A DNA stretch of 50,758 nucleotides, taken from positions 1-50,758 of the forward strand of contig CADBZI010000028.1 in assembly GCA_902799015.1 (NCBI GenBank), given 5' to 3'. The DNA comes from an uncultured Lachnospiraceae bacterium (GTDB taxonomy: Bacteria > Bacillota > Clostridia > Lachnospirales > Lachnospiraceae). Shown one piece after another: positions 3,529 to 19,983 of this stretch (position 1 is its first letter; each line of letters opens with the position of its first letter). The notes under the pieces were generated by a model. It made no database searches and was not told the origin of the DNA. It worked only from the letters and a program-made list of their open reading frames with translations. A program made the translations under genes and the position numbers.

Positions 3529-4260
3529 TCATTTCATGCTTACCCAGACGGCAGGCCGGATGCCGCAGTAGGTCTCATGCGTGACCTGAGCACCCGCCGG
3601 ATAGAGTCTCCCATCCCGGTCCACGAATGCCGCCGCATACTGGTCCGAGCCGGAGGTTCTTGTCCACCAGCATGCCTTCCCGGGATTTTCATCCCTTTCC
3701 CCATCTGTCTCGAGATGAAGAATCTGAGCGTATCTGGTTGCGTCTGCCGCTCCGATCACATAATGCGCTTCCTCGGTGCGCATACTGGCGCTTGCCTCCT
3801 CCAGGCTCAGCAGAAAGACCTGGTCCCTGGTCACACCGCAGCCATGGGACTCCATGCCCGGATTGGAAGGATTCTGGTTGGAAACCGTCAGGATCCGCTC
3901 CCGCTCCTGCTCAGTAAACGTACCGTCCGCAAAAGATCCATTCAAAAAGGCGCGCAGGGAGCAGTCCTCCCAGGTGATCTCTTCATACGTATCATGAAAA
4001 GGCATGGCTGCCAGCACATCCCGGCAAAGAAGCAAGGCCCGGTCTTCCAAAACCTCCAGAACCATCCAGCAAAGCGGCTCCGCTCCGTCCTTCGTGTCGC
4101 CATCCTGCTCAAAGGAACCGAAAGCAACCAGATCTCCCTTATTCAGGGAAGACGCGGAAAGGAGACTTTGCTCTTCTGTGCCCAGCCGGCTGGTCAGAGA
4201 GCATCCTGACAGCAGGCATGCAGCCGCACAAAGAAGGCTCAGAAAAAAGCGTGTCTTCAT
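3529..4260 (-). CDS. DUF6273-type lipoprotein
   Basis: The 243-aa protein has a lipoprotein signal with lipobox LLSGC (Cys20), so it is predicted to be anchored on the outer face of the membrane. The rest carries the pattern I associate with DUF6273: a CWMVLE strand, W..CSLRAFLNGSF, FTEQER, a D..FLLSLEEA segment, CWWTRTSG and a C-terminal GIRPAVWV. Its function is unknown. Its ATG overlaps the stop of the upstream ATPase (ATGA), so the two are translationally coupled. It is the last gene of the long operon and may be the substrate-binding or partner lipoprotein of the adjacent MacB-like transporter, which is inference. Confidence 0.75.
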   Translation of the reverse strand: MKTRFFLSLLCAAACLLSGCSLTSRLGTEEQSLLSASSLNKGDLVAFGSFEQDGDTKDGAEPLCWMVLEVLEDRALLLCRDVLAAMPFHDTYEEITWEDCSLRAFLNGSFADGTFTEQERERILTVSNQNPSNPGMESHGCGVTRDQVFLLSLEEASASMRTEEAHYVIGAADATRYAQILHLETDGERDENPGKACWWTRTSGSDQYAAAFVDRDGRLYPAGAQVTHETYCGIRPAVWVSMK

Positions 4261-5006
4261 GTCACCTTCTCCAGAACGCCCGCGTCCATCCGGTATCTGA
4301 GATCCGCATACTGCGCCGCTTCACGCTCATGCGTCACTACCATAACCGCCTTTCCCTGGTCTGCGATTTCTCTGAGCATGGACAATACAGCATCCCGATT
4401 GTCGTCATCCAGATCACTTGTGGGCTCATCCGCAAACAGGATCTGCGGATCCCGGATCATGGCTCTCGCGATTGCCATTCTTCGCAGCTCGCCTCCCGAT
4501 AACTCCTTCGGAAATGCATTGCCCAGGTTCCTGATTCCCATTCGTTCCAGAAGCTTTGCCGCTCTGTCCTTTACCGTCTCATCGCCGGCATACACAGTTG
4601 CGGGAAGCATGACATTTTCCATAACGCTCAGGGCAGCGACCGCGCTCTCCCCCTGCGGGATAATACCATAGTATTCATTCCGGAATCTGGACAGTGCCCG
4701 GTCATCCATCCGGTAAAGATCCGCCCTATAGCCGGCATCCTGCCCGGGCAGCGCTTCCAGGGCAGCGCCAAAGGTTTCCGCCGCAGCCTCACCGTGCAGC
4801 GTCGGAATTACGGCCAGGACGCTTCCGGATGACGGCTTCGCCAGTCCCGCCATGAGATTCAGCAGTGTGGTCTTCCCGCTGCCTGACCTTCCGCTCACTG
4901 TGATCAGTTTTCCCGGCTCCAGCACAAGATCCGTTTCCTGCAGGGCATAGAATTCCCGGCCTCCCCTTGGATAGCTCTTGCTGATCTTTTCCGCTCTCAG
5001 TAACAT
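4257..5006 (-). CDS. ABC transporter ATP-binding protein, MacB/LolD type (module 3)
   Basis: The 249-aa protein has Walker A SGRSGSGKTT (~37-46), signature LSGGELRR, Walker B ILFADEPTSDLD and the H-loop VVTHE. It energises the FtsX-like permease encoded just upstream. About 30 extra residues (around HGEAAAETFGAALEALPG) lie between Walker A and the Q-loop and are absent from its close paralogue at 8767-9438. The start follows GGAGCAGGAAAC. Transporters of this type are usually mechanotransducers or lipoprotein-handling machines, so import should not be assumed. Confidence 0.9.
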   Translation of the reverse strand: MLLRAEKISKSYPRGGREFYALQETDLVLEPGKLITVSGRSGSGKTTLLNLMAGLAKPSSGSVLAVIPTLHGEAAAETFGAALEALPGQDAGYRADLYRMDDRALSRFRNEYYGIIPQGESAVAALSVMENVMLPATVYAGDETVKDRAAKLLERMGIRNLGNAFPKELSGGELRRMAIARAMIRDPQILFADEPTSDLDDDNRDAVLSMLREIADQGKAVMVVTHEREAAQYADLRYRMDAGVLEKVT

Positions 5007-5054
5007 GTTTCCTGCTCCGTCATTCCTGTTCGTTCCATCTGCCAGTTCTGCCGC

Positions 5055-6260
5055 TCATCTTTCCTGGCGCAGTGCCAGTCCGATCTCCCCGCTGCTCACC
5101 CGGTTCACGTTCCAGAAGGAGGACAGGATCCCTGCCGCGACAACCGTCAGGGCAGCGGAAAGCATGTAACTGATCACGCTGCCTGCGCCGGGCATCAGCA
5201 TCGGCATATCCAGCGTTCCCTGCAGCGCTCCCGCAAACAGGATCTCCACAAGCAATGCCGCGCATATCCCTGCCGCGGCACCTGCCAGGCAGATCAGCAG
5301 AATCTCACTCATCACACTTCTCCTGAGCGAAACGCGCGAGACGCCGACCACCCTGAGGAGCGCATACTCCCTCTTCCTTTCATTGATCAGCATCGTAAAC
5401 ACGATCATCATGATCAAAAATGCAAGGATCAATATGACAGCCGTCATGATCCGCACGATATGAGAAATCCCCAGAAGGTTTCCGCTGATCCCTGCAATCA
5501 TGCCGGAGGTCGGAACCGCGCATACACCGGGTACGGACGCCTGGATCCTTTCCGCCAGAGCGTCAATCTCTATCCCTTCCTCTGCCTGCACCAGTACACA
5601 GGAAACGACATGGTTGGGATCCACCTCCTTGAACTGGTTCAGGTTCTTGCCGATTGAGGACATCGTCAATTCCCGGATCGTATCCGCTCCCGCAAACACG
5701 CAGTGGTCATAGCTGGTTCCTGTTCTGGTCAGCTTTCCTGCAACGATGCAGTCCGTTCCGTAGAAGGTCAGGGTATCCCCTTCGTCAGAGACAATATCAT
5801 GTCCGACCACAACCTCCATCTTCTTCAGCTGTCCACTGCAGGATCTTCGAATCCATGGAAGCACGGTAAAGTCCGTCTCCGGGTCAAATCCGATCAGCTG
5901 CACCTTGGCTGAGCAGCAGCTGGCAGCCAGGGAAGCCAGGAAGATCTGATCACTCACCTGCTTTGTGCCTTCCACATCAGCCACGGCTTTGGTTACAGTA
6001 TCCTCCATATAGAAGTATCCGGTCTGTCCCTGCAGAACAATCTCCTCCAGATTCTTTTTTTCCGCCGCCTCCTCCGGGATCACCATGATATCGGCGCCCA
6101 GCCGCTCCTTCAGGGAGGTCATTCCGCTGCGCAGGGAGGAAACCATCAGCGCTCCCCCGAATACAGTAAAGGAAAGCACCGCCGTAAGGCACAGCAGGAT
6201 CGCCGATCGTACCGGTTTTCTGAGAATATTCAACAGCGGCAGTTTTCGAAAGATTTGCAT
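5055..6260 (-). CDS. FtsX/MacB-like ABC permease (module 3)
   Basis: The 401-aa protein has one N-terminal membrane helix (~15-38), a ~220-aa extracytoplasmic domain, and three C-terminal helices with the FtsX-type motif ERKREYALLRVVGVSR. It is a paralogue of the 401-aa permease at 9447-10652: both share the start pattern (R..VRS...C), LGADIMV.P and PETDFTV.PWI. The ribosome binding site AGGAG is 12 bases from the ATG, a little distant. It pairs with the ATPase at 4257-5006 and follows frdB in the operon. Confidence 0.9.
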   Translation of the reverse strand: MQIFRKLPLLNILRKPVRSAILLCLTAVLSFTVFGGALMVSSLRSGMTSLKERLGADIMVIPEEAAEKKNLEEIVLQGQTGYFYMEDTVTKAVADVEGTKQVSDQIFLASLAASCCSAKVQLIGFDPETDFTVLPWIRRSCSGQLKKMEVVVGHDIVSDEGDTLTFYGTDCIVAGKLTRTGTSYDHCVFAGADTIRELTMSSIGKNLNQFKEVDPNHVVSCVLVQAEEGIEIDALAERIQASVPGVCAVPTSGMIAGISGNLLGISHIVRIMTAVILILAFLIMMIVFTMLINERKREYALLRVVGVSRVSLRRSVMSEILLICLAGAAAGICAALLVEILFAGALQGTLDMPMLMPGAGSVISYMLSAALTVVAAGILSSFWNVNRVSSGEIGLALRQER

Positions 6261-6345
6261 GGTTGTAAGATACTCCTGTTCCTCTCAGTAGGGAGACTCC
6301 CGCCTCTATAGGCGGTGCGTAACGATTCTGTCTCAGTGGCGGGTA

Positions 6346-7032
6346 TCAATCGCCCACTGAGGTAAAGCTTCCGGCCGTTTTCCAGCGCTTCCACACGCAA
6401 GCCGCGTTACTTCTTACCAATAATTCTTCAATCGGCAGCTGCGCAGGACAGATGTCCCGGCAGGCGAGTGATTTTCCGCAGCCGCTGTACACACCTTTCT
6501 GGTACGCCCGGGCGATTCGTTTTCTTTCTCCCTCAGAAAGACGCGCAATCAGGCGCGACATCGGCGCCATCGCTGCCATCCCGGCAAATGCGCCTCCGGC
6601 TGCAAAGTTCGGACATACCTCCAGGCAAAGGCCGCACTGCAGACATCTCGCTGCCTCAAATGCCATTCCCTCTGAACCCGTCCGCGCTTCCTCTTCCAGC
6701 CAGACAGACAGCCGGCGCAGGTTCTGCATCATGACAGAACGGTCAACGAGAAGATCCTCAATGACCGGAAACTTCCTGAGCGGCTCCAGCTGTATTACAT
6801 CTGTGGAAATCTCGGACAGTCTCGTATTGCAGGCAAGCGCCGGTGTCTTGTTGATCACCATCGCGCAGGCGCCGCAGCGTCTTTGCAGACAGCTGTGCTC
6901 CCAGACCACCGGCGTAGAAGCAAGGGCGGTTGCAACCGTAGCCCCCTCGTCTGTCGTTTCGTAGGTGAAATCTTCCCAATACGGCTTCGCCTCTGCGTTT
7001 TTCCGGCGCAGAATATGCAGGATTTTTTTCAT
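6346..7032 (-). CDS. Succinate dehydrogenase/fumarate reductase-like iron-sulfur subunit
   Basis: I choose the ATG at 7032 (MKKILHILRRKN, 228 aa) because AGGGGGACTGCCA precedes it; the in-frame start at 7065 has no such site. The N-terminal domain holds a [2Fe-2S] set C48-x4-C53-x2-C56-x11-C68. The C-terminal domain holds C130-x2-C133-x2-C136-x3-C140P and C185-x5-C191-x3-C195P, the ligand layout of FrdB/SdhB with one [4Fe-4S] and one [3Fe-4S] cluster. It passes electrons between the flavoprotein encoded upstream and a quinone-reactive membrane subunit, plausibly the cytochrome b-like protein at 10755-11306. It lies 73 bases after the flavoprotein gene. Confidence 0.88.
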   Translation of the reverse strand: MKKILHILRRKNAEAKPYWEDFTYETTDEGATVATALASTPVVWEHSCLQRRCGACAMVINKTPALACNTRLSEISTDVIQLEPLRKFPVIEDLLVDRSVMMQNLRRLSVWLEEEARTGSEGMAFEAARCLQCGLCLEVCPNFAAGGAFAGMAAMAPMSRLIARLSEGERKRIARAYQKGVYSGCGKSLACRDICPAQLPIEELLVRSNAACVWKRWKTAGSFTSVGD

Positions 7033-7105
7033 TGGCAGTCCCCCTTCGCACCAAGTTCCATTCAAGTCTGCTGCCGGCAGACTTGCACATGACCGCGCGG
7101 CGGCT

Positions 7106-8770
7106 TTAGCCGTCCTCTGCCTGTGCCCGCAGCACCGGGATCTCTCTGTATGAAAGCCGGATCTGTCCGTCCGCGCAGCATACGATGGTATTCTTTTTCA
7201 GAGCTGCATCCGTTTTCGGATAATCCAGCCTTGTGTGCGCTCCTCTGGACTCTCTGCGCTCCAGCGCGCTGAGAAGAAAAGCCCTGGCCAGAAGCAGGGT
7301 ATGTTTCAGCCTGCCGGAAGCTCTGGAAGCTTCCGTCAGGGCATCCAGTTTCTTCAGTGCGGCCTCTATTGTCTTCTGGTCGCGAAGCGGCGCCATGCCC
7401 TCCATCAGAATCTGCGTGATCGTTCCGCGGACCTGATTCTCTTCTTCGCAATTATCTTCTGCCCAATCTTCTTCGCCGCACTGATCCGCTTCGCTGCTGC
7501 CTTCCGCAAAATGCGCTTCTTCGCTGTTTTCTTCATCCTCCTCCGCGCAGCATCCATCTGTCATCATGGAAAGCGCGGTCTTCCGGCCGCCGAAGATCGC
7601 TCCAAGAAGGGAATTGCCTCCCAGGCGGTTTGCTCCGTGATAGGCGCAGGCACATTCCCCGGCCGCATAGAGCCCGGGCAGATTCGTCCTGTGCTGCTCA
7701 TCCACCAGAATGCCGCCCATAAAATAATGAATTCCCGGAGATACCGGAACAGATTCCCGGGCAGGGTCGACGCCAAGATAGTGCAGGATCTCCTCCCGGA
7801 GATCGGAAAGCCGGACCGCCCATGTCTCCCGGCTCAGGCCGGTGAGATCCAGATATACCTGCTTTCCGAGCATTGTCATTTCCCTGGAGATCACATCACG
7901 CGGCATAAGATTGCCGCGCTCTCCGTATTTCTCCTCAAGAAAATAGACCTTTTTCCTGTCCGTCGCTCCTTCTTCATAGTAAAAGAGCCTGCCTCCCTCT
8001 CCGCGGGCAGCTTCTGAGATGAGGAGCCGCTTTCCGGTGATCGCGACGGTGGTCGGGTGGTACTGCAGGAATTCAAGGTTTGAGAATTCGATTCCCTGCG
8101 CAAAGAGCGCCGCCTGCGCATCAGCGGCATTTGCCGTCGTTCCGGTCGTCTCACCCGCAAAAAGACCGTTCATGCCTCCGCATGCCATCAAAACCGCGCC
8201 GCTGAGAGAGATCTTCTCCTTCCGGAAGCGGTCATAGATCACGGCTCCTGCCACTTTCCCATTTTTCACGATGAGGCGCTCGAACCGGTGATGGGGATAA
8301 CGCTCGACCAGGCCTGCTGCCTCATATCTGCGCACGGCATCGATCAAGGCTGCCATCAGCATTTTTCCCGTACTGCTTTTCGCATAAGCGGTCCGCTTCT
8401 TCTTCTGTCCGCCGAAGTTTCTCTGGATGATCTGTCCCTGCTCTCTGTGAAACGGTACGCCGAGACGATCCATGTCTTTGACCAGCCCGACCGCCGCCTG
8501 TGTCAGGTTCCACACCATGTTCGGATCGGCCAGATCACATCCGCCCTTCATGGTGTCCAGAAAATGCTCCTGCACCGTATCCTGTTCTCCCATGACATCC
8601 AGCGCGGCATTGATCCCGCCCTCCGCAAGATTGGACTGCGCCCTTTCCGAAGGCTGAAATGAAATCAGCCTCACGCCAACTCCCTCCTGCGCAAATGCCC
8701 TTGCCGCAGACAGTCCGGCCAGCCCGGCCCCTATAATATTGACAGCCATTGTTTTCGTATTCATGGTCAT
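7106..8770 (-). CDS. FrdA/SdhA-like flavoprotein without the FAD-linking histidine
   Basis: The 554-aa protein has an FAD-binding start (IIGAGLAGLSAARA, 12-25) and resembles Bacillus-type SdhA through RTAYA, EAARGEGGRL (253-262), PRD with Arg291, IHYFMGG with His348, HGANRLGGNSLLGA and ESRGAH (507-512). Substrate-binding and proton-transfer residues therefore look intact, and fumarate or a related enoate is the likely substrate. Where SdhA/FrdA have the His that binds FAD covalently, this protein has Asn47 (AQSNLAEGG), so FAD should be non-covalent. An acidic insert with several cysteines occupies ~405-446. The ATG overlaps the ATPase stop; the second ATG (8764) is better spaced from AGGA and may be the true start. 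Confidence 0.85.
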   Translation of the reverse strand: MTMNTKTMAVNIIGAGLAGLSAARAFAQEGVGVRLISFQPSERAQSNLAEGGINAALDVMGEQDTVQEHFLDTMKGGCDLADPNMVWNLTQAAVGLVKDMDRLGVPFHREQGQIIQRNFGGQKKKRTAYAKSSTGKMLMAALIDAVRRYEAAGLVERYPHHRFERLIVKNGKVAGAVIYDRFRKEKISLSGAVLMACGGMNGLFAGETTGTTANAADAQAALFAQGIEFSNLEFLQYHPTTVAITGKRLLISEAARGEGGRLFYYEEGATDRKKVYFLEEKYGERGNLMPRDVISREMTMLGKQVYLDLTGLSRETWAVRLSDLREEILHYLGVDPARESVPVSPGIHYFMGGILVDEQHRTNLPGLYAAGECACAYHGANRLGGNSLLGAIFGGRKTALSMMTDGCCAEEDEENSEEAHFAEGSSEADQCGEEDWAEDNCEEENQVRGTITQILMEGMAPLRDQKTIEAALKKLDALTEASRASGRLKHTLLLARAFLLSALERRESRGAHTRLDYPKTDAALKKNTIVCCADGQIRLSYREIPVLRAQAEDG

Positions 8771-9438
8771 CGTTCCTGTGACAGCGTCCCTGCGTTCATG
8801 GCAAAGATACGGTCGGCGTATGCGAAGGCATCCTCTTCATGGGTAACAATAAGAACGGCAGCGCCTTCCCGCGCAAGCTGACACAGACTGTCCAGTACCG
8901 CTTCGGTATTCTCATCGTCCAGATCGCCGGTCGGCTCATCCGCGAAGATGACCTCCGGCTTTCTGACCAGCGCTCTGGCAATCGCCATTCGCCGCAGCTC
9001 GCCGCCGGACAGGCGGTCCGGCATCACCTCACTCAGATCCGCGATCCCGAATCGCTCCAGCATCCTGCGTGCGGCATTTCTCCCGTCCTCTTCATACAGC
9101 GTGTACGGCAGCATGACATTTTCCAGGACATTGAGAGAGAAAACCGCGCTGCGCCCCTGCGGGACATATCCGATGTGACGATTGCGGAATCCGGACAGCT
9201 CTTCATCCTTCATTGCGTAGAGATCCGCGCCATCGTAGAAAACCTTTCCCTCCGTCGGATGCAGGATGCCGGCCAGCAGGTTGAGCATCGTGCTCTTCCC
9301 GGATCCGGATCTGCCGTGAATCATTGTCACCTGCCCTGCCGGAATCAAAAAGTCGCAGGGCGCGACCGCCGTAAAAATATTGGTCTGACTGCCGGCCCGT
9401 ATGAATTCTTTCCTGATCTGCTGTGCTATGACTTCCAT
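8767..9438 (-). CDS. ABC transporter ATP-binding protein, MacB/LolD type (module 2)
   Basis: The 223-aa protein (MEVIAQQIRKEF) has Walker A GRSGSGKST, Q-loop YVPQGRSAVF, signature LSGGELRRMA and Walker B VIFADEPTGDLDDEN. I place the start at 9438, just after the permease stop, because the longer frame to 9825 overlaps the permease. The nearest GGAGG is 16 bases upstream, so initiation may rely on coupling. It is a close paralogue of the ATPase at 4257-5006 but lacks that protein's insert. Its stop overlaps the frdA-like start (ATGA). Confidence 0.9.
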   Translation of the reverse strand: MEVIAQQIRKEFIRAGSQTNIFTAVAPCDFLIPAGQVTMIHGRSGSGKSTMLNLLAGILHPTEGKVFYDGADLYAMKDEELSGFRNRHIGYVPQGRSAVFSLNVLENVMLPYTLYEEDGRNAARRMLERFGIADLSEVMPDRLSGGELRRMAIARALVRKPEVIFADEPTGDLDDENTEAVLDSLCQLAREGAAVLIVTHEEDAFAYADRIFAMNAGTLSQER

Positions 9439-9446: not shown

Positions 9447-10652
9447 TTACGTTTCCTCCCGAAGGAGCGTTCCGGGTTCCTTCCCACTGATTCTCCCTGC
9501 CGCAAATGCTGCGGCTGCCGCTCCCGTCACAGTCGGAATCAACAGAGAAAGGAGTACGTTCCATGCCATCTGAGCGGCATCGGGAAACAGAAAGGGCAGA
9601 GACAGCCATCGCACCATCCAGCCATTCCCTGCCAGAACCAGAATCAGTCCGGCCAGGGTTCCGGTCAGCGCACCGATCCCGCTTACGGAAAGAACCTCCC
9701 CGCGTACAATCCCGGAGATCTTTCTTCCCGAAGCCCCCATGATTCTGAGCAGGGCAAATTCCCTTCTGCGCTCCCTGGTCTCGAAGACCAGGACAGCTGC
9801 CATCACACCCACGCAGACAGCCCATACCGCAGCCATCAGCAGCTTCACGCCCCGCGACACGCCTCCCATACCCGAGGCTGCGTGTGTGAGCACATGCTGC
9901 GACTGCACGGCCCGGACTTTCTTGATGTGAATATTGATATCATTTTTTACGGATTCCACATCATATCCGTCTTTCACATCGATCAGAATGGAAGAGGCGG
10001 CATTGCCATCGTATCCCCGGATCCTTTCTTTCAGTGTCTCATCCCCTGATGCATCCGCGATGCTCCGCAGGGTTTCCGGATCCATATATACCGTGGTATC
10101 ACAATCGGTATCCGACTGATCCAGCCTGGCGCTTACCGTCACATCGGTCCCGAAAAGGGACAGTGTTTCTCCGACTTTCGCGTCAATTCTGCTGCCGATT
10201 ACCACTCCCCGGCTTTTTCCCGCTTCCCCGTCTGATTCCAGAATCCAGGGCTTGACCGTAAAGTCCGTCTCAGGATCATACGCCATCAGGCAGACCGGCA
10301 CATCGCAGTATTCTGTCTCGGTCAAAGTCAGGCAGAACTGGGATGAGATCTTTCCCACGCCCTCCATCCGGGCGATCTTGTCCATATATTCACCGGGCAT
10401 ATAAAATGCGCCGGCATTCCCGAGAAGAACCGCATTGTCAAAATTCTTCTTTGAAATCGCGGCATACGGCACGACCATGATGTCCGCTCCAAGACGCATC
10501 TCCATCGCCCGGAAGCCGTTCTCCAGAGACTGTACCGTACAGGTCCCTGCAAAGAGAACCGCCGACAGAACCGCCGCGAGAAGGCAAAGCGCGATGCTGC
10601 GTACCGGTCTTTTGACCAGATTTCTGAAAATGAGCTGTCTAAGATGCGTCAA
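9447..10652 (-). CDS. FtsX/MacB-like ABC permease (module 2), TTG start
   Basis: The 401-aa protein begins at TTG (10650-10652) with GGAGG seven bases upstream. It has one N-terminal helix, a large extracytoplasmic domain and three C-terminal helices with RERRREFALLRIMGASG. Same length and same landmarks as the permease at 5055-6260 (RLGADIMVVP, YDPETDFTVKPWI) show a duplication. It works with the ATPase at 8767-9438. The two duplicated permease-ATPase pairs flank the FrdAB-like genes. Confidence 0.9.
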   Translation of the reverse strand: MTHLRQLIFRNLVKRPVRSIALCLLAAVLSAVLFAGTCTVQSLENGFRAMEMRLGADIMVVPYAAISKKNFDNAVLLGNAGAFYMPGEYMDKIARMEGVGKISSQFCLTLTETEYCDVPVCLMAYDPETDFTVKPWILESDGEAGKSRGVVIGSRIDAKVGETLSLFGTDVTVSARLDQSDTDCDTTVYMDPETLRSIADASGDETLKERIRGYDGNAASSILIDVKDGYDVESVKNDINIHIKKVRAVQSQHVLTHAASGMGGVSRGVKLLMAAVWAVCVGVMAAVLVFETRERRREFALLRIMGASGRKISGIVRGEVLSVSGIGALTGTLAGLILVLAGNGWMVRWLSLPFLFPDAAQMAWNVLLSLLIPTVTGAAAAAFAAGRISGKEPGTLLREET

Positions 10653-10754: not shown

Positions 10755-11306
10755 CTAATAGACACTCCACCGTATGAAATAGACCACAAACGCGGCACCC
10801 GCCAGAAAAAGCAGAACGGATAGCACCAGCAGAAGGTCCGTCCGGAGTGCGTGGCGGTCTTCGAGGCCAAGCGCAATCCGCAACGGAGAAATATTCCCGA
10901 TCAGATGAACCAGAAGGGAAGCCGCCAGAAGAAGCTGTGTTGCAAGCTGCGTTGCGCCAAACAGGTTCAGCCGGTACGCACCGCTTGCCGTCGTTCCGCG
11001 GAAGATCTGAATATGACAGATCAGAAACAGCATCAGCGCCAGTCCGCTGATCCGTCGGATCCAGAACAGGCGGTTTGGCTTCGCATAGGAAGCTCCTGCC
11101 CTTCGCGAGAGGAAGAGCGTCTTTGCGGTCAGGAAAACAGAGATTGCTGCGTGCACGGCAATCAGGGTCAGAAGGGTGTGCGTCAGAGCCGTATAAAAAG
11201 TACCGCCTCCCGGTACCATCCCGGCAAGGACGAGGATCCCCCGGATCATATGGACCATGAACAGTACCATAATCAGTACCGTCATCATCGCATTGACTTT
11301 TCTCAT
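10755..11306 (-). CDS. Five-helix membrane protein, cytochrome b (SdhC/FrdC)-like
   Basis: The 183-aa protein has five predicted helices (~8-29, 42-62, 86-104, 120-139, 156-178). Histidines sit within four of them: His19, His43/His52, His98 and His134. This fits the axial ligands of a di-haem quinone-reactive cytochrome b, such as the five-helix SdhC of Bacillus. With FrdA- and FrdB-like subunits a few genes downstream, it could be the membrane anchor of a fumarate-reductase-type complex. The match is by architecture, not by clear sequence identity. The ATG overlaps the upstream stop (ATGA) and follows GGAGGGAAT. Confidence 0.65.
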   Translation of the reverse strand: MRKVNAMMTVLIMVLFMVHMIRGILVLAGMVPGGGTFYTALTHTLLTLIAVHAAISVFLTAKTLFLSRRAGASYAKPNRLFWIRRISGLALMLFLICHIQIFRGTTASGAYRLNLFGATQLATQLLLAASLLVHLIGNISPLRIALGLEDRHALRTDLLLVLSVLLFLAGAAFVVYFIRWSVY

Positions 11307-12269: not shown

Positions 12270-12348
12270 TGTCGGATTCTCCTCTCAAGTATACCATATC
12301 TCAGGACGCTTCGTCTGCCTGAGCCGCTCCGCACGCAGACTTACGCAG

Positions 12349-12537
12349 CAGATCCTTGTTATATGTCACACCCTGACCAGGTACAAGGCATGCACAGAGC
12401 TCCTGAGCGGAGACTTTTGGGGCGCAGAGCGTCCGGTGGACGCTCGCTTTGCGCCGACCGGAGCGGAGCGGAGACTCGTAGCGAAGGAACCCTGTGCATG
12501 CCGCAGATACTGGTAGGGGTATGACTAACAGATCCTT
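12349..12537. repeat. Palindromic element with 9-bp flanking direct repeats (MITE- or REP-like)
   Basis: The unit is bounded by CAGATCCTT (12349-12357 and 12529-12537). Inside, terminal GTTA/TAAC and further matching segments pair. An 11-bp perfect arm follows (GGCATGCACAG 12387-12397 with CTGTGCATGCC 12492-12502), and the centre is a tight hairpin (GGCGCA, AGCGTCC, loop GGT, GGACGCT, TGCGCC; 12421-12455). Flanking direct repeats suggest insertion with target duplication. It has no coding capacity and splits the operon between the ATPase and the FMN lipoprotein, where it could affect read-through or message stability. Confidence 0.6.
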
Positions 12538-12560
12538 TTTCCAGGGGCGGAACGGATCGT

Positions 12561-13268
12561 TTACTGAAGCGTAATATGTTTGATCTTTCCGGTGAAGTTC
12601 TCGTTGATCATCTCACGGTCAACCCTTCCGTTGCGCAGCACCACCGTACGCTGGGCGACCTCTGCCACTTCAGGGTTGTGCGTGACAACCACCAGTGTGG
12701 TACCCTCCAGGTGCAGCTTGCGGAACAGCTCTACGACGATCTCCTCATTTGCCTCGTCCAGGTTTCCGGTCGGCTCATCCGCCAGAATGATCTCAGGATA
12801 ATTGATCAGCGCGCGCGCAACGCAGACCCTCTGCTGCTCACCGCCGGACAGCTGGCTGGGATAGTGATGCGCACGGTCAGACAGACCGACCCGCTCCAGT
12901 GCCTCCAGCGCTTCCTTCTCGTCCGGAACGCTGTGATAGTACTGCGCCAGCATGACATTTTCCACTGCGGTCAGATAGCTGACCAGATGGAATTGCTGGA
13001 AGATCAGCCCGATCTTGTCCCGCCGGATATCGGTGAGCGCTCTGGCATTCTTTTTGGAGATATCCTCTCCATCCAGCAGGATCTCCCCCTCCGTCGCCTT
13101 ATCCAGTGCGCCGATGATGTTCATCATGGTACTCTTCCCGGATCCGGACGGTCCCATAATGGCCAGCCATTCTCCCTTTTCCACCGTGAGATTCACATGA
13201 TCCAGCGCATGGAGGCTGCCATATATTTTCGATACATTTTTCAGTTCAAGAAGACTCATTTGCGTCAT
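12561..13268 (-). CDS. ABC transporter ATP-binding protein of the P19/FTR1 locus (module 1)
   Basis: The 235-aa MacB/LolD-type ATPase has Walker A MGPSGSGKSTMM, Q-loop LIFQQFHLVSYLT, signature LSGGEQQRV and Walker B IILADEPTGNLDE. It serves the two permeases encoded directly upstream. The annotated ATG overlaps the permease stop (ATGA); the ATG three codons later (13259) has a better-spaced AAAGGAG and could be the real start. In Campylobacter jejuni the equivalent gene follows the same two permeases in the P19 locus. A palindromic element separates it from the next gene. Confidence 0.92.
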   Translation of the reverse strand: MTQMSLLELKNVSKIYGSLHALDHVNLTVEKGEWLAIMGPSGSGKSTMMNIIGALDKATEGEILLDGEDISKKNARALTDIRRDKIGLIFQQFHLVSYLTAVENVMLAQYYHSVPDEKEALEALERVGLSDRAHHYPSQLSGGEQQRVCVARALINYPEIILADEPTGNLDEANEEIVVELFRKLHLEGTTLVVVTHNPEVAEVAQRTVVLRNGRVDREMINENFTGKIKHITLQ

Positions 13269-14431
13269 TCTCCTTTCAGCACAAGTGCAGGATCAACCTG
13301 GGTCGCGCTCCGGATCGGAATCAGGCAGGCAATGCCTGTAACGACAACGGAAGCAAGGATCGTTACCGGGATCAGCCATGGCATCAGCCGGATCGAGCTG
13401 TTGAAGACGTTTCTGGATACCACCTGGGCAAACGCAAAACCGAGTATCGCGCCAAGCAGTCCGCCGAACGCGCCAAGTACGACTCCCTCTCCCATGAACT
13501 CCGCGATAATACTGCCGTTGCTCGCGCCCAGCGCCTTCCTGAGGCCAATCTCCCTGCGGCGCTCCGCCACAACGGCTGTCATTGTAGTCGCCACACAGAT
13601 CATCGTCAGCGCAAGCACCACAATGGTAACCAGCAAAACCAGCGACTGCAGCTTTGTCAGGACCGTATCCTCGGACTCTGTCACACGCTTTACCAGCCGG
13701 GCAGTGACCCCCTCAACCTGCTGATCAATCTGTTCCGCGATCTGAGACAGCTCCGCGGAGTTTGCGGATACCGACAATTCACAGACATCATATTCCGTTG
13801 GCATTCCGGTCAGCTTCTCCATATCCGGGATCAGCATATAAACATAGTCTTCCTCTTTGCCGCCGGTATCCAGAATTCCGGACACGGTGAAATCTGCCCA
13901 GTTGTCGGGAAGGATCTCCTCCGTCTCTCCCGGCTGCGCCTCTGTCTCCGCTTCCGGCGCGAAGGTGCAGGTCGTCCGTTTTCCGGCCTTCAGGTTATAG
14001 GTTCTGGCGATGTTTTTTCCGGCCATGAGTTCGCCTTCCTTAGAAGGCCACTCCCCTTCTACCAGCCAGAACGGACTTGTCTTGCGTACCTGCTCCAGAT
14101 CCGCCGCGGCAGCCATGACCGGACGGTCATTGATCCGGACAGTCTGATACCGGTATGCCGCAACGCCGACGAGCTTGTCATCCGGTATGAGCTTTTTTGT
14201 CGCTTCCACCTGTTCCTGTGTAATGGAATCTCCTTCCGACGTCAGAATCATATTGGCGCCGTAGCTTCGAAACTGCTGTCCCATCTGTCTGGGCACATCG
14301 TAATAGATGGTCACCAGGCCGGACAGAATCATTGCGCCGATCGAGATCGCCAGAAGCGCGATGATCATGCGTGATCTGCGCCGCAAAAGCGAGGCCATGA
14401 TCATGCGGATGTACATTTTTCTCTTTTTCAT
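13265..14431 (-). CDS. FtsX-like ABC permease of the P19/FTR1 locus (second)
   Basis: The 388-aa protein has one N-terminal helix (~20-40), an extracytoplasmic domain and three C-terminal helices with AERRREIGLRKALGASN, the FtsX/MacB signature. It forms the transporter with its neighbour permease (10 bases upstream) and the ATPase with which it overlaps. The start follows AGGAGCGGGGAA. Paired permeases of this type are part of the P19 iron locus; their exact cargo is not settled. Confidence 0.9.
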   Translation of the reverse strand: MKKRKMYIRMIMASLLRRRSRMIIALLAISIGAMILSGLVTIYYDVPRQMGQQFRSYGANMILTSEGDSITQEQVEATKKLIPDDKLVGVAAYRYQTVRINDRPVMAAAADLEQVRKTSPFWLVEGEWPSKEGELMAGKNIARTYNLKAGKRTTCTFAPEAETEAQPGETEEILPDNWADFTVSGILDTGGKEEDYVYMLIPDMEKLTGMPTEYDVCELSVSANSAELSQIAEQIDQQVEGVTARLVKRVTESEDTVLTKLQSLVLLVTIVVLALTMICVATTMTAVVAERRREIGLRKALGASNGSIIAEFMGEGVVLGAFGGLLGAILGFAFAQVVSRNVFNSSIRLMPWLIPVTILASVVVTGIACLIPIRSATQVDPALVLKGE

Positions 14432-14441: not shown

Positions 14442-15731
14442 CTATCTTCCGTGAAGTACTTCCGTCGGTCTCAGGTTCAGCAGCATCCGGATCGCCGGAA
14501 TGCTTCCGATCAGCGTGACAAGCACCACGAGCACCGCGACAACCGGAACTACCATGGGACGGATCGATATGGCAGAGTTGAATACGGAATGTCCGATAAT
14601 CTGCGCGAATCCGATTCCTGCGTAGAATCCGATGACGCCGCCGATGACAGCGGTACACATAACCTCGGTCAGTACCAGGGCATTGATCGATGCATTGTGC
14701 GCGCCGACTGCCTTCATCAGGCCGATCTCCTGTGACCGCTCCATGACAGAAGCAGTGACAAGATTGCAGATGCCCAGCGCGGCGCCGACCATTGACAGGA
14801 TGGTAATCAGGATCATCAAAAGCCTGGTCTTATTCAGAATCTGTCCCTCCGAGTCAGCGACCTGGCGGACCGCGGAAGCGACTGAATCCGTGATCACTTC
14901 TTCAATCTGGTAGCAGATCGAGCTGACATACGCCGTACAATACCAGGTTTCATACTGGGACACCGACAAAGATCCCGGATCCCTGGCTGCCTTCCGGGCC
15001 AGATCATTATCCGGCGTCGTCAGTGCGGACACCTCGATGCTGTCGATCTTTCCGTCCAGATCTCCCAGCTCCTGTGCGGTATCAACCGTGACATAGATCA
15101 GGTCATCTTCCTCGCCGCCCGCATCAAAGATCCCGGCAACCTCCAGTTCTTTCTCCGCCGCCTTTCCTTTCAGACGGATGTGGTCACCCGCATGAATCTG
15201 CTCTCTTTCGGCACATGCGCTCCCGACCATCGCCATAGCTTCGCTGCCCGGATTCTTCTCATCCAGCCATTGACCGTCGGTGATCGTCCACCAGCTTCTC
15301 AGGGAAGCAATGCCGGCATCCAGCTCCTCGCCGGTCGGCAGATCCATGTGATGGTTGAACCACGTTCCGGCCGCCAGAACCTCATCGCCGTTTTCCAGCT
15401 GTACCTGCGTAGATACAAACGGTGCGTAATCCACGATATTGAATGCCCAGAAGATGGTCTTGATCTTTCCGAGCTCATCCTCCTTCAGGTAGGTGCCGGA
15501 GATATTTTCGTCCCCCACATCGTACAGATCATTGATGACCGACGCGCTCTTGGGCACGACGGAAATGTTCGCGCCGTACGCCTTCAGCTCCTGGTTCATC
15601 TTGTCCTCAACGTCCATCATGACGCAGAGCATGGCTGTCGCGAGGGAAGCGCCAAGAGCGATCGTAAACGCGATCATCATCATCTTCTTCCACTGCCTCA
15701 GGAAGGCCTTGGCTATCATTCTCACAAACAT
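14442..15731 (-). CDS. FtsX-like ABC permease of the P19/FTR1 locus (first)
   Basis: The 429-aa protein has an N-terminal helix (MIAFTIALGASLATAM), a large extracytoplasmic domain with an internal EEDDLIYV segment, and three C-terminal helices with ERSQEIGLMKAVGAHN. It is homologous to the next permease but longer. Its ATG overlaps the stop of the DUF2318 gene (TAATG), indicating coupling. Role as for the neighbouring permease: transporter component of the iron-uptake locus. Confidence 0.9.
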   Translation of the reverse strand: MFVRMIAKAFLRQWKKMMMIAFTIALGASLATAMLCVMMDVEDKMNQELKAYGANISVVPKSASVINDLYDVGDENISGTYLKEDELGKIKTIFWAFNIVDYAPFVSTQVQLENGDEVLAAGTWFNHHMDLPTGEELDAGIASLRSWWTITDGQWLDEKNPGSEAMAMVGSACAEREQIHAGDHIRLKGKAAEKELEVAGIFDAGGEEDDLIYVTVDTAQELGDLDGKIDSIEVSALTTPDNDLARKAARDPGSLSVSQYETWYCTAYVSSICYQIEEVITDSVASAVRQVADSEGQILNKTRLLMILITILSMVGAALGICNLVTASVMERSQEIGLMKAVGAHNASINALVLTEVMCTAVIGGVIGFYAGIGFAQIIGHSVFNSAISIRPMVVPVVAVLVVLVTLIGSIPAIRMLLNLRPTEVLHGR

Positions 15732-16981
15732 TACTTGAACTCCCTTTCATACTCGAGAAGGCCTGAGATCGGAACAATGATCTGACCGTTATTGACTTCG
15801 TACGGAATGACAATCGGGTTGCAGCCTCCCTTGAATCCGATCGTTGAGATGTTCATTACCACGTCGCACAGGTTGCAGACCACCTGTCCGTTCTTCTCAT
15901 AATATCCTGTCTCACCGCAGACATCACAGGCATCCAGACCGATGCCGTATGCATTTCCGCCCGGTTTCTGAATGACAATAAACCGGATCTGGACACCATT
16001 CTCCGTCTCATACGCGAAGCGGTGCAGATGGCCGTCATTCACCAGATCAAACGAGACGTACACGTTGTCTTCATCCACCGCGGATACTTCCTCCACAGGA
16101 GACAGGGTGACATCCGTCGCATTGAGTTTCTCGAACCAGGTCAGATTCACAATGACCAGAACAGAGCAGAGGATCATCGTACTGGCCCAGCGGCGGGTCC
16201 TGCGCCACTTTGCGCGGATCTGCCTGTGCTGTGCAGGGTTCGCCCATTTCTCCTTCTGATTCATGCTCGCAATCCACAGTCCGAGAGCAGCTGCTGCTGC
16301 CAGTAAGACAGCCAGAAACAGAAACCAGTCACTGTGATTCTTCACATAGACGGTATAGGTGAACATCGTATGATTGGACTTGACGATCTTTTTCTGAAAC
16401 AGCACGGAAAACAGATTCGCAAGACGCATGGCTGCGTGAATGGTCAGCTCAAGCTTCAGCAAAAGCCCAGCCGCAGAAAAGGGCAGGCGCCGGGTGCATT
16501 TCATCGCGCCAAGAAACGCGGCTGCCGCAAGAATCAGTCCGGCAGTCATCCCGATCATCGCCAGCAGAAAATCCGTGGAGATCATCGTCGTTTCTTCCTG
16601 CAGCACATGATAGGGATAAGCCCAGACATCCGGCAGGGCATATACCAGGATCGTGACGTACAAAACGCCCGCGAAGATCCACGGAAGAAAGGATAAGAAT
16701 CCGTGATCGGATGGTTTTTTTATGGTAAAGATCAGAAACAGTACATATGCAATCAGTCCGATCACATAGATCCATCCATTCAGGATCGCTGTATCGATCA
16801 TGCTTGTCGTATTTCGAATCACCGCGACGGCAATGGAGCCTCCGACCCCCGCCAGGGCAAATGCCCCTACAATGCGCCGATGCGCCTTTGCGGCGGCAAT
16901 CATCACATAGCCGGTGAATACACCGAGAATCACCGCCTCCATCAGGATCTGGCGTGTCGTAAGTATCAGGTATGTGAGCAT
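15731..16981 (-). CDS. DUF2318 membrane protein (Fe-S/haem-like cysteine domain)
   Basis: The 416-aa protein has about eight membrane helices in its first 260 residues and then an extracytoplasmic C-terminal domain with Cys352-x2-Cys355, Cys369-x2-Cys372 and Cys387 (DACDVCGE, CNLCDVV, FKGGCNP). This is the DUF2318 arrangement. The cysteine pairs could hold a metal centre or shuttle electrons. In the C. jejuni P19 locus the same family lies between p19 and the ABC permeases, as here. The start follows CGGAGGAAGAT. A role in moving electrons to periplasmic iron is inferred. Confidence 0.85.
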   Translation of the reverse strand: MLTYLILTTRQILMEAVILGVFTGYVMIAAAKAHRRIVGAFALAGVGGSIAVAVIRNTTSMIDTAILNGWIYVIGLIAYVLFLIFTIKKPSDHGFLSFLPWIFAGVLYVTILVYALPDVWAYPYHVLQEETTMISTDFLLAMIGMTAGLILAAAAFLGAMKCTRRLPFSAAGLLLKLELTIHAAMRLANLFSVLFQKKIVKSNHTMFTYTVYVKNHSDWFLFLAVLLAAAAALGLWIASMNQKEKWANPAQHRQIRAKWRRTRRWASTMILCSVLVIVNLTWFEKLNATDVTLSPVEEVSAVDEDNVYVSFDLVNDGHLHRFAYETENGVQIRFIVIQKPGGNAYGIGLDACDVCGETGYYEKNGQVVCNLCDVVMNISTIGFKGGCNPIVIPYEVNNGQIIVPISGLLEYEREFK

Positions 16982-17068: not shown

Positions 17069-17620
17069 TTACTCAAGACCGGCGAATTCCCATCCCTCAA
17101 AGGTATAGGACAGGTTGCCGTCTGCGAAGTGATCCTTCAAAGATCCGCCTGGGCCGGTCTCGGCGTCGGAGTGGATGAGGTATCCGTTCTCGCCCGGGCT
17201 GTGGATGGTGATGGTCAGGTTATAGGTACCCGGATCCAGCTTGATGTTGTTTCCATAATGCGGGCCGTCAGATGCCGCCATCTCCATGAAGGTTCCGGAG
17301 ACAACTTCATTTCCGTCCTGATCCTCGATCTTGTAGTCAACCGTCAGATACGGTACCCACTCGCCGACCGGATAGCCAAGGTCATTTTCCAGAGCAGAGA
17401 TATCTGCCTCAATGTGAATGTCCGCATCCTCCGCGCTGTAGGTCATGGTCTCATTTTCCATCGGAACGGCCTGGAACCAGACTGCGGACAGGTTGATGAA
17501 ATCAAGCTCTTCATCCGAGAAAATCTCATTCTCTACAAATCCTGCCTCGTCCGCCATTGCCGGGAACGCCGCAAACGCCATCGCGCCCGCAAGTGCCAGT
17601 GCTAAAATCTTTTTCTTCAT
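17069..17620 (-). CDS. P19/Tp34-family periplasmic iron transport protein
   Basis: The 183-aa protein has a signal peptide (MKKKILALALAGAMAFAAFP, cut near AMA) and then a mature domain with ADIHIEADI (His69), MEMAASDGPHYGNNIKL (Met112, Met114, His121) and a C-terminal FEGWEF. P19/Tp34/FetP proteins bind copper and iron through His and Met residues and feed iron to an FTR1 permease. The GC-rich 110-base gap upstream of it contains a small hairpin (17704-17718) but no terminator. It sits between FTR1 and DUF2318 as in other P19 loci. Confidence 0.88.
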   Translation of the reverse strand: MKKKILALALAGAMAFAAFPAMADEAGFVENEIFSDEELDFINLSAVWFQAVPMENETMTYSAEDADIHIEADISALENDLGYPVGEWVPYLTVDYKIEDQDGNEVVSGTFMEMAASDGPHYGNNIKLDPGTYNLTITIHSPGENGYLIHSDAETGPGGSLKDHFADGNLSYTFEGWEFAGLE

Positions 17621-17730
17621 GTCTTTTCCTCCTGTAAAGCTTTGCTGTAAATGGAATCTATATTATGAAAAGGGATGTTCCCTGATCATACGCATAGGTC
17701 TGTCCTGCCGCCGGCAGGCACATGCAGTCT

Positions 17731-19524
17731 TTACTGCCCTTTTTCCGCTGTCTGCTGCTTTTCCCTCTGATGCTCCTGCATCTCCTGCTTCAGCTTTTTG
17801 TTCCTCTTCAGCCAGAACACAAAGGTTGCAATCGTGATCACGGTCAGGATCAGCTGCGGAACGATGGTCTCGACGCAGGGATAGATGCCCAGCACCTCCA
17901 GAACCGGATGGGACGGGATCCATGCCACCCATGCCGGCGCGTGCATGGAGATCACATCGCCTTCGATCAGTTCCTTAATCCCGCTGCCCAGGAATGCGAT
18001 GGACATAACCGCCATCAGGATACTGGTCACCAGGAAGAACGGCTTGAGCGGAAGCCTTACGCTCATCAGGCGGATTGCCAGGTATACGAATACCAGGCAC
18101 ACGCATCCGACGGCAAAGCCCAGCCATACCATACTGGTGCTGCCGCCCGACAGCAGCGGCTGGTAGAACAGGATGACCTCCGCGCCCTCCCGGTAGACTG
18201 CGAGGAATGCGGTAAAGGCAAGGGCGAAGGTGCTTCCGGTCTGCGCGGCCTTTCCGACCTTGCTCTTGATGTAGGCATCCCAGGCCTCCGACTCCGACTT
18301 GGACACCATCCAGTTGCTGACATAGAACAGAACCGCTGTCGCAATCAGCGCCGTGACGCCTTCGATTACCTCCTGGGAAGCGCTGTTCGCAAGCTTCAGC
18401 TGATTCAGCAGCCACGCAGAGACAAAGCTCAGAACAATTCCGAGGATTGCTCCGGCGTACACCGGACGCAGCAGACGTTTTCTTTCCTCATCAGAACGAT
18501 CCTTGGTTGTCTTGATCAGATAGGCAATGATCGCGCCCACGACCAGGATCGCCTCAAATCCTTCTCTCAGGATGATCGTAAAGCAGGCAATGAAGGTGGC
18601 AAGTGACGCGGATCTTCCGCCGCCTGTTGCATTGCCGTCTTCGTCCACACCGTCCAGCTTATTTGCATCCGTGCGGATCATCGTGCGGAGAATGTCCACC
18701 GCCTCATTGAATTCCTCTTCTGTTCCGCCTTTTGAAGCGGACTTCGCTGCGGAGAACTGCAGCTCAACCTCTGACTTTCTGGCGCCGGAGATGTAACCCA
18801 TCGTATTGCGCTCGAATCCGGTCGTCTCATAGTAGCCATAGTAGCCATCGTTCACATGGTTGTATGCTGTCTCGGCATCTCCTTCGGCATACTTTGCCTT
18901 GGCGTCGCGGAACACCTCCGTCATCGCATCCGCCACATCATTCCAGGTCCAGTCTTTCTCCTTGCCTGCCGCCTTGCTGTAGCCGGCCCAGTCCCCGTAA
19001 TACTGTTCCCGAAACAGAGCCGTTGCCGCTGTTTCTTCCTCGCTTGCGATGTCAACATCCGACTTGACGCCATCGAGCTTATTCGCCGCGTTGCGAAGGT
19101 CTGCGATCAGGACATCCTTCGCCGTATTGAAGTCGTCTGCCGATCCGCCTTCCTTGATCGTCTTCGTGCAGGCTTTGAAATCCGCCAGTGCACTGCTCTT
19201 GTGAATCGCCGGAAGCTTCTTCTGCATCTGTACCTTGAAGCCGGAGCCGCCCCAGTACACATTCTTGGCATCCGCAATCTGCTTCAGCGCCGTATCTGCA
19301 TCTGACGCCTCATACGACTTCGCAGCCGCTTCCATCACCTGTGTAATCCCGTCTACGACCGCGTTATAGGTAAACTCCTCAATGCCGTTCTCCTCCATAT
19401 ATGCCTGCCAGGTCGCAGGGTAGGCCGGATCCTCCCCGGCGAACGCGCTAAACGGCCAGCAAAGCAGAAGCATCGCCAGAAATGCCGAAAGGATCCGTCT
19501 GATGTGTCTTGCCCGAATGTTCAT
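17731..19524 (-). CDS. FTR1-family iron permease with duplicated extracytoplasmic N-terminal domain
   Basis: The 597-aa protein has a signal peptide (cut near AFA at ~29), two homologous ~100-residue helical units (about 52-153 and 193-293, each ending NKLDGV), and then a seven-helix FTR1 domain. Both iron-binding REGxE motifs are present: REGFE at 320-324 and REGAE at 445-449. FTR1 permeases move iron in step with a redox partner. The N-terminal units resemble the soluble domains often fused to bacterial FTR1. The start follows GAAGGCTTGTAACA. It lies upstream of P19, matching their functional pairing. Confidence 0.92.
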   Translation of the reverse strand: MNIRARHIRRILSAFLAMLLLCWPFSAFAGEDPAYPATWQAYMEENGIEEFTYNAVVDGITQVMEAAAKSYEASDADTALKQIADAKNVYWGGSGFKVQMQKKLPAIHKSSALADFKACTKTIKEGGSADDFNTAKDVLIADLRNAANKLDGVKSDVDIASEEETAATALFREQYYGDWAGYSKAAGKEKDWTWNDVADAMTEVFRDAKAKYAEGDAETAYNHVNDGYYGYYETTGFERNTMGYISGARKSEVELQFSAAKSASKGGTEEEFNEAVDILRTMIRTDANKLDGVDEDGNATGGGRSASLATFIACFTIILREGFEAILVVGAIIAYLIKTTKDRSDEERKRLLRPVYAGAILGIVLSFVSAWLLNQLKLANSASQEVIEGVTALIATAVLFYVSNWMVSKSESEAWDAYIKSKVGKAAQTGSTFALAFTAFLAVYREGAEVILFYQPLLSGGSTSMVWLGFAVGCVCLVFVYLAIRLMSVRLPLKPFFLVTSILMAVMSIAFLGSGIKELIEGDVISMHAPAWVAWIPSHPVLEVLGIYPCVETIVPQLILTVITIATFVFWLKRNKKLKQEMQEHQREKQQTAEKGQ

Positions 19525-19578
19525 TGTTACAAGCCTTCTTTCAATCTGTTCTTTTTTTTGCCGTGATCCATGTATCCG

Positions 19579-19983
19579 TCACTTTGTTTTTTGCCTGATC
19601 CTGCCAGTCAGATCCAGGAGCGACAGCAGTGCGATCAGGGCGCCCATAATCCATGCAAACGGCCGCATCACCGCATAACATCTCATTGTGTCCATCATGC
19701 ACATCTTCATCAGCGTTCCCGGAAGAAGAACCGCGATGACTGCCGCAGCAATCCCGGCCAGTCTGAGAAGAATGCAAACGCCCGCAGAAGAGATCAGCAG
19801 GGCAGCCACTGAGATCAGCGTCAGAATGACTCCTGTGAACGCAAGCGCTGTCTGAACTTCATGGCAGTGCATCCAGGTCCCGTCCTCTTTCGCGCTGCAT
19901 GCACGAAAGACGGTCATCACGCCGATTGCCAGCACAGCCGGCGCTGCCACCAGGATCCACTGCAGCAATCCCCTCTTATTCAT
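19579..19983 (-). CDS. DUF4418-like membrane protein
   Basis: I start at 19983 (MNKRGLLQW, 134 aa), which has AGGAG five bases upstream; the ATG at 19998 lacks a site. Four helices are predicted (~8-27, 46-66, 70-90, 107-124). The loops carry Cys29, the WMHCHE motif (Cys40, His41), and KMCMMDTMRC (Cys95, Cys102 and several Met). This fits DUF4418, of unknown function. Cys/His/Met clusters at the membrane surface suggest metal or redox chemistry. It is the first gene after the iron-responsive promoter, just ahead of FTR1. Confidence 0.75.
   Translation of the reverse strand: MNKRGLLQWILVAAPAVLAIGVMTVFRACSAKEDGTWMHCHEVQTALAFTGVILTLISVAALLISSAGVCILLRLAGIAAAVIAVLLPGTLMKMCMMDTMRCYAVMRPFAWIMGALIALLSLLDLTGRIRQKTK

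Follow-up and report, generated by a model that had tools for sequence, protein, structure and literature searches.

A P19/FTR1-type iron-uptake locus whose complex II partner is probably of a new kind, in a Lachnospiraceae gut bacterium

The fetMP-fetABCDEF cluster of Campylobacter jejuni encodes, in this order, an FTR1-type permease, the iron-binding protein P19, a DUF2318 protein, two permeases and an ATPase (PMC6083913, PMC10783030). The same order is found in a gene cluster on a 50,758-nt stretch of DNA (the window, meaning the whole stretch that was analysed) from an uncultured Lachnospiraceae bacterium (GCA_902799015.1, contig CADBZI010000028.1), and the DUF2318 protein encoded there matches the C. 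jejuni cysteine pattern CxxC-x13-CxxC-x(14,15)-C (PMC6083913). Unlike in C. jejuni, the thioredoxin-like fetE and fetF are replaced by genes for a flavin mononucleotide (FMN)-binding lipoprotein, an anchored protein that we call ANC, a cytochrome b-like protein (cytb) and FrdA- and FrdB-like subunits, and two MacB-like permease-ATPase pairs, a DUF4418 protein and a DUF6273 protein are added. The locus is real and conserved and makes up a new variant of P19/FTR1 uptake, in which the partner of complex II type is probably of a new kind.

FtrABCD of Brucella and other bacteria brings together an FTR1-like protein and a P19-like one, FtrA, which we take to be the P19 homologue. Ferroxidation-coupled transport has been proposed for this system, which has the cupredoxin FtrB, and the available part of the account makes no mention of a flavin or Frd unit (PMC11966278). 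According to the same source, copper-loaded FtrA of Rubrivivax oxidises iron(II), and in yeast FTR1 partners a multicopper ferroxidase, with Ftr1p moving iron(III) only when it is made in situ (PMC11966278). An FMN_bind gene beside P19 and FTR1 is also already in print, from 260 P19 clusters that were mostly Gram-positive (Meheust 2021, PMC8238504). In the part of that report at hand, the P19 and FMN clusters are described as having no transmembrane electron path of their own; the same three genes stand together here, and the present cluster encodes a candidate for such a path, the complex II-like unit (PMC8238504). An earlier note on this DNA knew of no characterised system of this composition; with the FMN gene already in print, the new part is the ANC-cytb-FrdA-FrdB unit.

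Diheme quinol:fumarate reductases form type B of the complex II family. With these enzymes, for example that of Wolinella (PDB 1qlb), the unit has in common the fumarate site of FrdA, the clusters of FrdB and a five-helix subunit with four His; it differs in having Gln at the position that links the flavin adenine dinucleotide (FAD), in that no quinone prenyltransferase was found in most hosts, and in an extra anchored subunit bearing a flavinylation-like motif. In the open-licence literature (titles and beginnings of abstracts, without supplementary tables) no description of ANC-cytb-FrdAB with P19/FTR1 or DUF6921 was found, and PMC11334425, as far as its accessible part goes, deals with other cytochromes. 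The Gln in place of the FAD-linking His, the ANC motif and a sister unit with P-type ATPases, described below, are new relative to the earlier note.

The iron core and the complex II-like unit

The core consists of the following genes; here and below, Pfam assignments were accepted when the score exceeded the cut-off of the family.

17731..19524, minus strand: FTR1 iron permease with an N-terminal extracytosolic domain (Pfam FTR1, 98.3 bits)
17069..17620, minus strand: P19 iron-binding protein (Pfam Iron_transport, PF10634, 154 bits, cut-off 21)
15731..16981, minus strand: DUF2318/FtrD-like membrane protein, FetA-like (Pfam FtrD-like, 103.4 bits)
14442..15731, minus strand: ATP-binding cassette (ABC) permease 1 of the core, FetB/C type (FtsX and MacB_PCD)
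13265..14431, minus strand: ABC permease 2 of the core (FtsX and MacB_PCD)
12561..13268, minus strand: ABC ATPase of the core, FetD type (ABC_tran, 127.8 bits)

All of these scored over their Pfam cut-offs, in agreement with the earlier recognition of a known P19-type iron-uptake system. FTR1 has two REXXE motifs (REGFE at 320 and REGAE at 445), the DUF2318 protein has CxxC-x13-CxxC-x14-C at residue 352, and two FtsX-type permeases and one ATPase lie directly downstream, as membership of the P19/FTR1 (FetMP-FetABCD) type leads one to expect. Gene set and motifs therefore support assignment of the core to this type, with iron transport as its predicted activity.

The second part of the cluster comprises the complex II-like subunits and two flavin protein candidates.

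10755..11306, minus strand: cytochrome b-like subunit with five helices (four invariant His, 19, 52, 98 and 134)
7106..8770, minus strand: FrdA-like flavoprotein (FAD_binding_2, 250 bits, and Succ_DH_flav_C)
6346..7032, minus strand: FrdB-like iron-sulfur subunit (Fer2_3 and Fer4_8; 11 invariant Cys)
11823..12269, minus strand: FMN-binding lipoprotein (Pfam FMN_bind, 34.3 bits; flavinylation motif DSISGAT)
11303..11803, minus strand: ANC, one N-terminal membrane helix and a DUF6921-like domain (sub-threshold match to PF21914)
11672..11692, minus strand: flavinylation-like motif DTVSSAT of ANC, in the linker just outside the membrane helix

Relatives were collected by one scan of a genome contig collection with a four-sequence cytochrome alignment, which gave 39 loci (L numbers; G numbers denote genomes). 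For FrdA, 39 sequences (the window and 38 loci, excluding L073, where the gene is split in two frames) were compared in one alignment with FrdA, SdhA and NadB of E. coli. The fumarate-site positions H233, T235, E251, R288, H356 and R391 (E. coli FrdA numbering) are kept in 39/39, and the His that links FAD covalently in E. coli FrdA (H45) and SdhA is Gln in every one of them (Gln45 in the window), so that the FAD is predicted to be non-covalent. In a tree with only three outside sequences the 39 cluster together, separate from FrdA and SdhA of E. coli (support 0.97), within which 17 sequences make up an iron-type clade (support 0.94); among the best 25 of 49 NCBIfam matches, the FrdA score lies below each cut-off. 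FrdB keeps its 11 Cys in 40/40 sequences, residues that suit three iron-sulfur clusters, and scores 102.3 bits against TIGR00384 (dhsB, cut-off 88).

All four His of the cytochrome are kept in 39/39 sequences (the window and 38 loci; L056, where cytb was found by tblastn only, was left out). By helix direction, His 19 and 98 would face outward and His 52 and 134 inward, an arrangement that fits two stacked haems. The window protein has no Pfam match; Sdh_cyt is matched by 8/26 relatives, and this, together with a profile match to the Sdh subunit C 6lum_C (E 0.0027) and the position beside FrdAB, suggests a possible homology to Sdh/Frd C subunits. The cytb-FrdA-FrdB order also occurs twice (L083 and L084) in a metagenome-assembled genome (MAG) of a methanogen, Candidatus Methanoflexus mossambicus, with no ANC in view.

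The motif D-x-x-[S/T]-G-A-[S/T] is present in 17/17 FMN lipoproteins, including that of the window. The ANC domain scores 15.6 bits against DUF6921 (PF21914), under the cut-off of 26, and a P-ATPase-type relative scores 217 bits. The ANC domain resembles PDB 3noh both by profile match (E 1.9e-23) and in an AF2 model (Foldseek TMt 0.72), and looks like a single lobe of a solute-binding protein. Residues 37-48 of the linker have pLDDT values under 50 in the model. The published flavinylation motif has Gly at its fifth place (PMC12052999). This place is Ser in the window ANC and in nine other non-redundant members, and Arg or Lys in L055, L056 and L074, and the sixth place is Val in L059, L064 and L065. 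Ser at the fifth place is probably tolerated. The correspondingly wider motif, D-x-x-[S/T]-[S/G]-A-[S/T], was found in 30/37 ANC proteins (17/22 after removal of redundancy at 90%) versus 2/574 other proteins from the same loci; its Asp is one of only three positions invariant across 22 ANC sequences, and its last residue, judged by eye from the alignment, is Ser or Thr in all 36 with an intact N-terminus. ANC is absent from L082-L084, which are therefore outside this set. A gene for ApbE was found in 30/33 genomes (E 5.5e-85 in the window genome, G000). On the strength of these motifs the ANC family is likely to be flavinylated, and of the window's own ANC we are less sure.

Joint occurrence with the iron core, and a sister module

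In 14 of the 39 loci FTR1, DUF2318, two permeases and an ATPase are encoded on the same strand as FMN, ANC, FrdA and FrdB, and cytb is present in all 14 (13 found by script, L056 by tblastn). Retention in these 14 further loci takes the gene set beyond chance. The nearest relative, L047, is a contig fragment that begins inside the core and shows no FTR1, and it was not counted with the 14; duplicates (L078, the G147 contig of L030/L031; L069, the G072 contig of L032; L067, the G025 contig of L033) were counted once. By title, the iron-type loci come from Lachnospiraceae, Ruminococcus, Oscillibacter, Oscillospiraceae, Clostridia and one Spirochaetales MAG, several of them ruminant. Between ANC and cytb the listed loci have −4 to 48 nt. 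A transglutaminase-like gene (9 of the 14), DUF4418 (8) and an extra MacB-like permease (11) recur as well, most of them behind FrdB.

Thirty-eight module-carrying genomes were searched for P19. It was found in 17/19 of the iron type (15/17 of the FrdA clade and both of L079 and L080) versus 2/19 of the others (17 of P-ATPase type, L057 and L082), a difference with p = 1.7e-6 in a Fisher test that ignores shared ancestry, so that its tips are not independent. In a general survey P19 was present in 17/398 genomes of the phylum and 7/391 of the class, the window genome being included in both. Physical linkage is apparently not needed for the association. In G165 (L080) FTR1-P19-DUF2318-permease-permease-ATPase lies on contig C20 and FMN-ANC-cytb-FrdAB on C68, and in G168 (L081) core, FMN, DUF4418 and a permease-ATPase pair lie on C54 and ANC-cytb-FrdAB on C1; these separate contigs indicate that the tie is kept without close linkage. 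No P19 match was found in G160 (L058), where FTR1 is present, or in G167 (L063); L063 is cut off by the end of its contig. At L058 (597-3382) FTR1 is followed by DUF2318 after 74 nt, and an FTR1-Frd cluster may work there without P19.

A family search for DUF2318 returned a long frame (>400 aa) over the cut-off in the window genome, G147, G072 and G142, with an FTR1 core in each. In G147 the order FTR1-P19-DUF2318-permease-permease-ATPase-FMN-ANC-cytb-FrdA-FrdB forms a single run; in G072 and G142 there is no Frd part at the FTR1 core. The earlier note had named as one refuting outcome that the FrdAB/FMN part never travels with the FTR1 part, and this is contradicted: the two are joined in 14/39 loci and P19 co-occurs even where they are unlinked. 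That they belong together is well supported by this comparative evidence.

Short DUF2318 proteins (~170-190 aa) adjoin HMA-type P-ATPases in other Lachnospiraceae (L035, 7649-12673; L043, 10145-14657), and in L035 a further neighbour of DUF2318 is a DsbD-like protein that combines HMA and cupredoxin domains. Such occurrence outside iron uptake (L035, L043) runs counter to the published ‘almost always’ tie of DUF2318 to P19 clusters.

A sister module occupies 17 loci (L059, L061, L062, L064-L073, L075-L077 and L085), in which a heavy-metal P-type ATPase is followed by DUF6921-cytb-FrdA-FrdB, the gap between ATPase and DUF6921 gene being 16 nt in 16/17. This argues that the module is not specific to iron. 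Its hosts include Blautia, Eubacterium ramulus, Coprococcus, Megasphaera, Peptostreptococcus and Urinicoccus, and its FrdA is 97-99.8% identical among 16/17 loci, which suggests recent transfer. Five of the ATPases were inspected and carry CPC, Lys and Asp-x-Gly marks, which we take to be those of the Zn/Cd/Pb class; an ArsR-type gene is present in 8/17 loci, and the L033/L067 ATPase has two HMA domains.

A proposed electron path and its alternatives

No UbiA, the family to which the prenyltransferases of quinone synthesis belong, was found in 19/22 genomes, the window's included, while control genomes were positive in 14/14; among the iron-type genomes searched it was not found in 13/15. Quinol-linked operation is therefore unlikely, although the negative comes from draft genomes and quinones could also be taken up. 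Of the ‘quinol- or fumarate-linked flavin chemistry’ proposed earlier, the fumarate half fits the active site kept in all 39 FrdA sequences and the quinol half is disfavoured by the UbiA result.

We propose, with a probability of roughly 0.48, that the locus combines a P19/FTR1 importer with a dedicated transmembrane electron complex, fumarate being the outlet of ferroxidation-coupled import. ANC-cytb-FrdA-FrdB would be a quinone-free relative of complex II, with FrdA (holding non-covalent FAD) and FrdB in the cytosol, two b haems of the cytochrome spanning the membrane, and covalent FMN on ANC and the FMN lipoprotein outside. P19-bound iron(II) would be oxidised and the iron(III) imported by FTR1, while the electrons would pass by way of the DUF2318 cysteines, the FMN proteins, the outer and then the inner haem and the FrdB clusters to FrdA, where fumarate would be reduced to succinate. 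An anaerobe needs another electron outlet than oxygen, and a fumarate-only complex II relative acting on outside flavins would supply one. In this scheme we infer the haems, the FMN on ANC, the order of the carriers and the direction of the electrons.

Several observations weigh against this proposal. Non-covalent FAD has a low potential (PMC9557727), so that electrons from iron(II) would have to move uphill to reach it, and the literature tends to assign the FMN protein to assimilatory iron reduction (PMC8238504). Ferrochelatase was found in 0/22 genomes and in 8/14 control genomes, a result that calls for haem uptake or another route of synthesis, unless the four His ligate something other than haem; the fold search with cytb gave weak matches, which do not settle its homology to Sdh/Frd C. 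The window ANC reads SSAT instead of the canonical GAT, 7/37 ANC proteins fall outside even the wider motif, and among the 33 genomes searched no ApbE was found in those of L047 and L048, which are the nearest relatives, or of L082. The 17 sister loci place the module beside Zn/Cd/Pb-type P-ATPases, where its task cannot be iron oxidation. L079 is iron-linked and yet its FrdA lies outside the iron-type clade, which means that the iron tie arose or re-formed at least twice or that module and core were exchanged. In other Bacillota, cytb, ANC and FrdAB were found in 0/21 P19 neighbourhoods (blastp, E 1e-5, ~18 kb), drawn from 22 P19-bearing genomes besides the window's with G769 left out; an FMN gene was labelled in 9/21, the core was partly recognised in L110 and L125, and the DUF2318 gene was unlabelled in L121. 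The redox unit is also absent from two further Lachnospiraceae FTR1 loci, L034 and L038. At L038 (G142) the core is followed by DUF4418, a permease-ATPase pair, a fumarate-reductase-type protein with FMN_bind and FAD_binding_2 domains (11470-13428) and an Rrf2 regulator; the fumarate-reductase-type protein has a signal-peptide-like N-terminus, starts 13 nt behind the FTR1 cluster and is a possible substitute for the Frd unit. We counted it in favour of the fumarate-outlet proposal, as a different solution.

The same carriers could also run in the opposite direction, with cytosolic electrons passing via FrdA/FrdB and the haems to ANC-FMN and the FMN lipoprotein, which would reduce outside iron(III) to iron(II) for P19/FTR1. 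The membrane potential favours outward electrons, a low-potential FAD is a good reductant, and other flavinylated systems have been proposed as assimilatory iron reductases (PMC8238504). This direction is nonetheless unlikely, if a serious contender, as FrdA keeps the succinate/fumarate site without the covalent FAD required for succinate oxidation and the unit includes no further subunit for the oxidation of NAD(P)H or ferredoxin. An alternative in which iron is not acted on at all is that the unit tunes the redox state of the DUF2318 cysteines or of surface thiols, as FetE/FetF may do in Campylobacter. The module does occupy the fetEF position of C. jejuni (PMC10783030), DUF2318 has two CxxC and one further Cys, the next downstream gene in L081 is CcdA/DsbD-like by its N-terminus (by eye), and the ATPase that the sister unit accompanies belongs to a class for metals without redox activity; but no thioredoxin-type Pfam match was found in the module, and the strong tie to P19 also speaks against a thiol role, which we hold to be improbable.

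The window cluster is divided by a 291-bp gap bearing a repeat, and this, with the occurrence of the module without a nearby FTR1 in the 17 P-ATPase loci and several others and of FTR1 loci without the module, could mean that an iron importer and a fermentative fumarate reductase are unrelated neighbours brought together by chance or shared regulation. The junctions in the 14 other joined loci are mostly short or overlapping, and the co-occurrence with P19 persists when the parts are unlinked; two unrelated units, a reading already strained, would thus be very surprising.

More widely, and tentatively, the unit could represent a new class of complex II that is quinone-independent, has covalent FMN on an anchored DUF6921-type subunit as its electron partner outside the cytosol and serves as an exchangeable unit of metal traffic (FTR1/P19 or Zn/Cd-type P-ATPases), with fumarate-driven, ferroxidation-coupled import in its iron clade. 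The cluster offers a concrete candidate for electron handling by P19/FTR1 systems in anaerobes mostly without a found quinone prenyltransferase, possibly the electron route so far lacking in accounts of how such importers run without oxygen or quinones. It also hints at a branch of complex II whose partners would be surface flavins rather than quinones, and makes DUF6921 a candidate for a new substrate of flavinylation, human-associated bacteria included.

Remaining genes and surroundings

The cluster comprises 17 genes, all on the minus strand and without internal stops, spanning 3529-19998. In order of transcription they are DUF4418, FTR1, P19, DUF2318/FtrD-like, two FtsX-type permeases, ATPase, FMN-binding lipoprotein, ANC, cytochrome b-like, MacB-like permease B and ATPase B, FrdA, FrdB, permease C and ATPase C, and DUF6273. 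Every gene named in the earlier note is present, and its count of 18 should read 17, to which its own list sums; its description of same-strand genes that mostly overlap or are closely spaced was accurate, the intergenic distances being −4 to 110 nt apart from the 291 nt that separate the FMN gene from the core ATPase. The features outside the core and the redox unit are as follows.

19579..19998, minus strand: DUF4418 small membrane protein (Pfam DUF4418, 78.6 bits)
12270..12560, no strand assigned: 291-bp gap with a dispersed repeat of ~170 bp that has copies elsewhere in G000
9447..10652, minus strand: extra MacB-like permease B, TTG start (FtsX and MacB_PCD)
8767..9438, minus strand: extra ATPase B (ABC_tran, 106.8 bits)
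5055..6260, minus strand: extra MacB-like permease C (FtsX, 56.4 bits; 32% identical to permease B, its paralogue)
4257..5006, minus strand: extra ATPase C (ABC_tran, 90.5 bits; 45% identical to ATPase B, its paralogue)
3529..4260, minus strand: DUF6273 lipoprotein (Pfam DUF6273, 92.2 bits; present in L048 as well)

FtsX was over its cut-off in all four permeases and ABC_tran in the three ATPases. An extra MacB-like pair (permease B and ATPase B in the window) is situated between cytb and FrdA in the window, L047 and L048, and in several relatives DUF4418 is found ahead of the trailing MacB-like pair. The repeat in the gap (12270-12560) has 7 other copies in the draft genome (at least 140 nt of the query, 88-92% identity) and 24 shorter matches. 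In relatives, the junction between core ATPase and FMN gene measures −146 to 121 nt in 14/15 cases and 274 nt in L079, lengths that rest on mechanically assigned start sites.

The window is contig C28 of the draft genome G000 (168 contigs, ~2.6 Mb, 85% complete), and the G+C content of the cluster is 55.5%, versus 54.7% for the entire window. The cluster is flanked by thrS (20302-22230, with a T-box leader at 22607-22809) and, on the other side, by infC/rplT (2010-3146); infC and rplT also lie downstream in L048, the nearest relative with a long contig.

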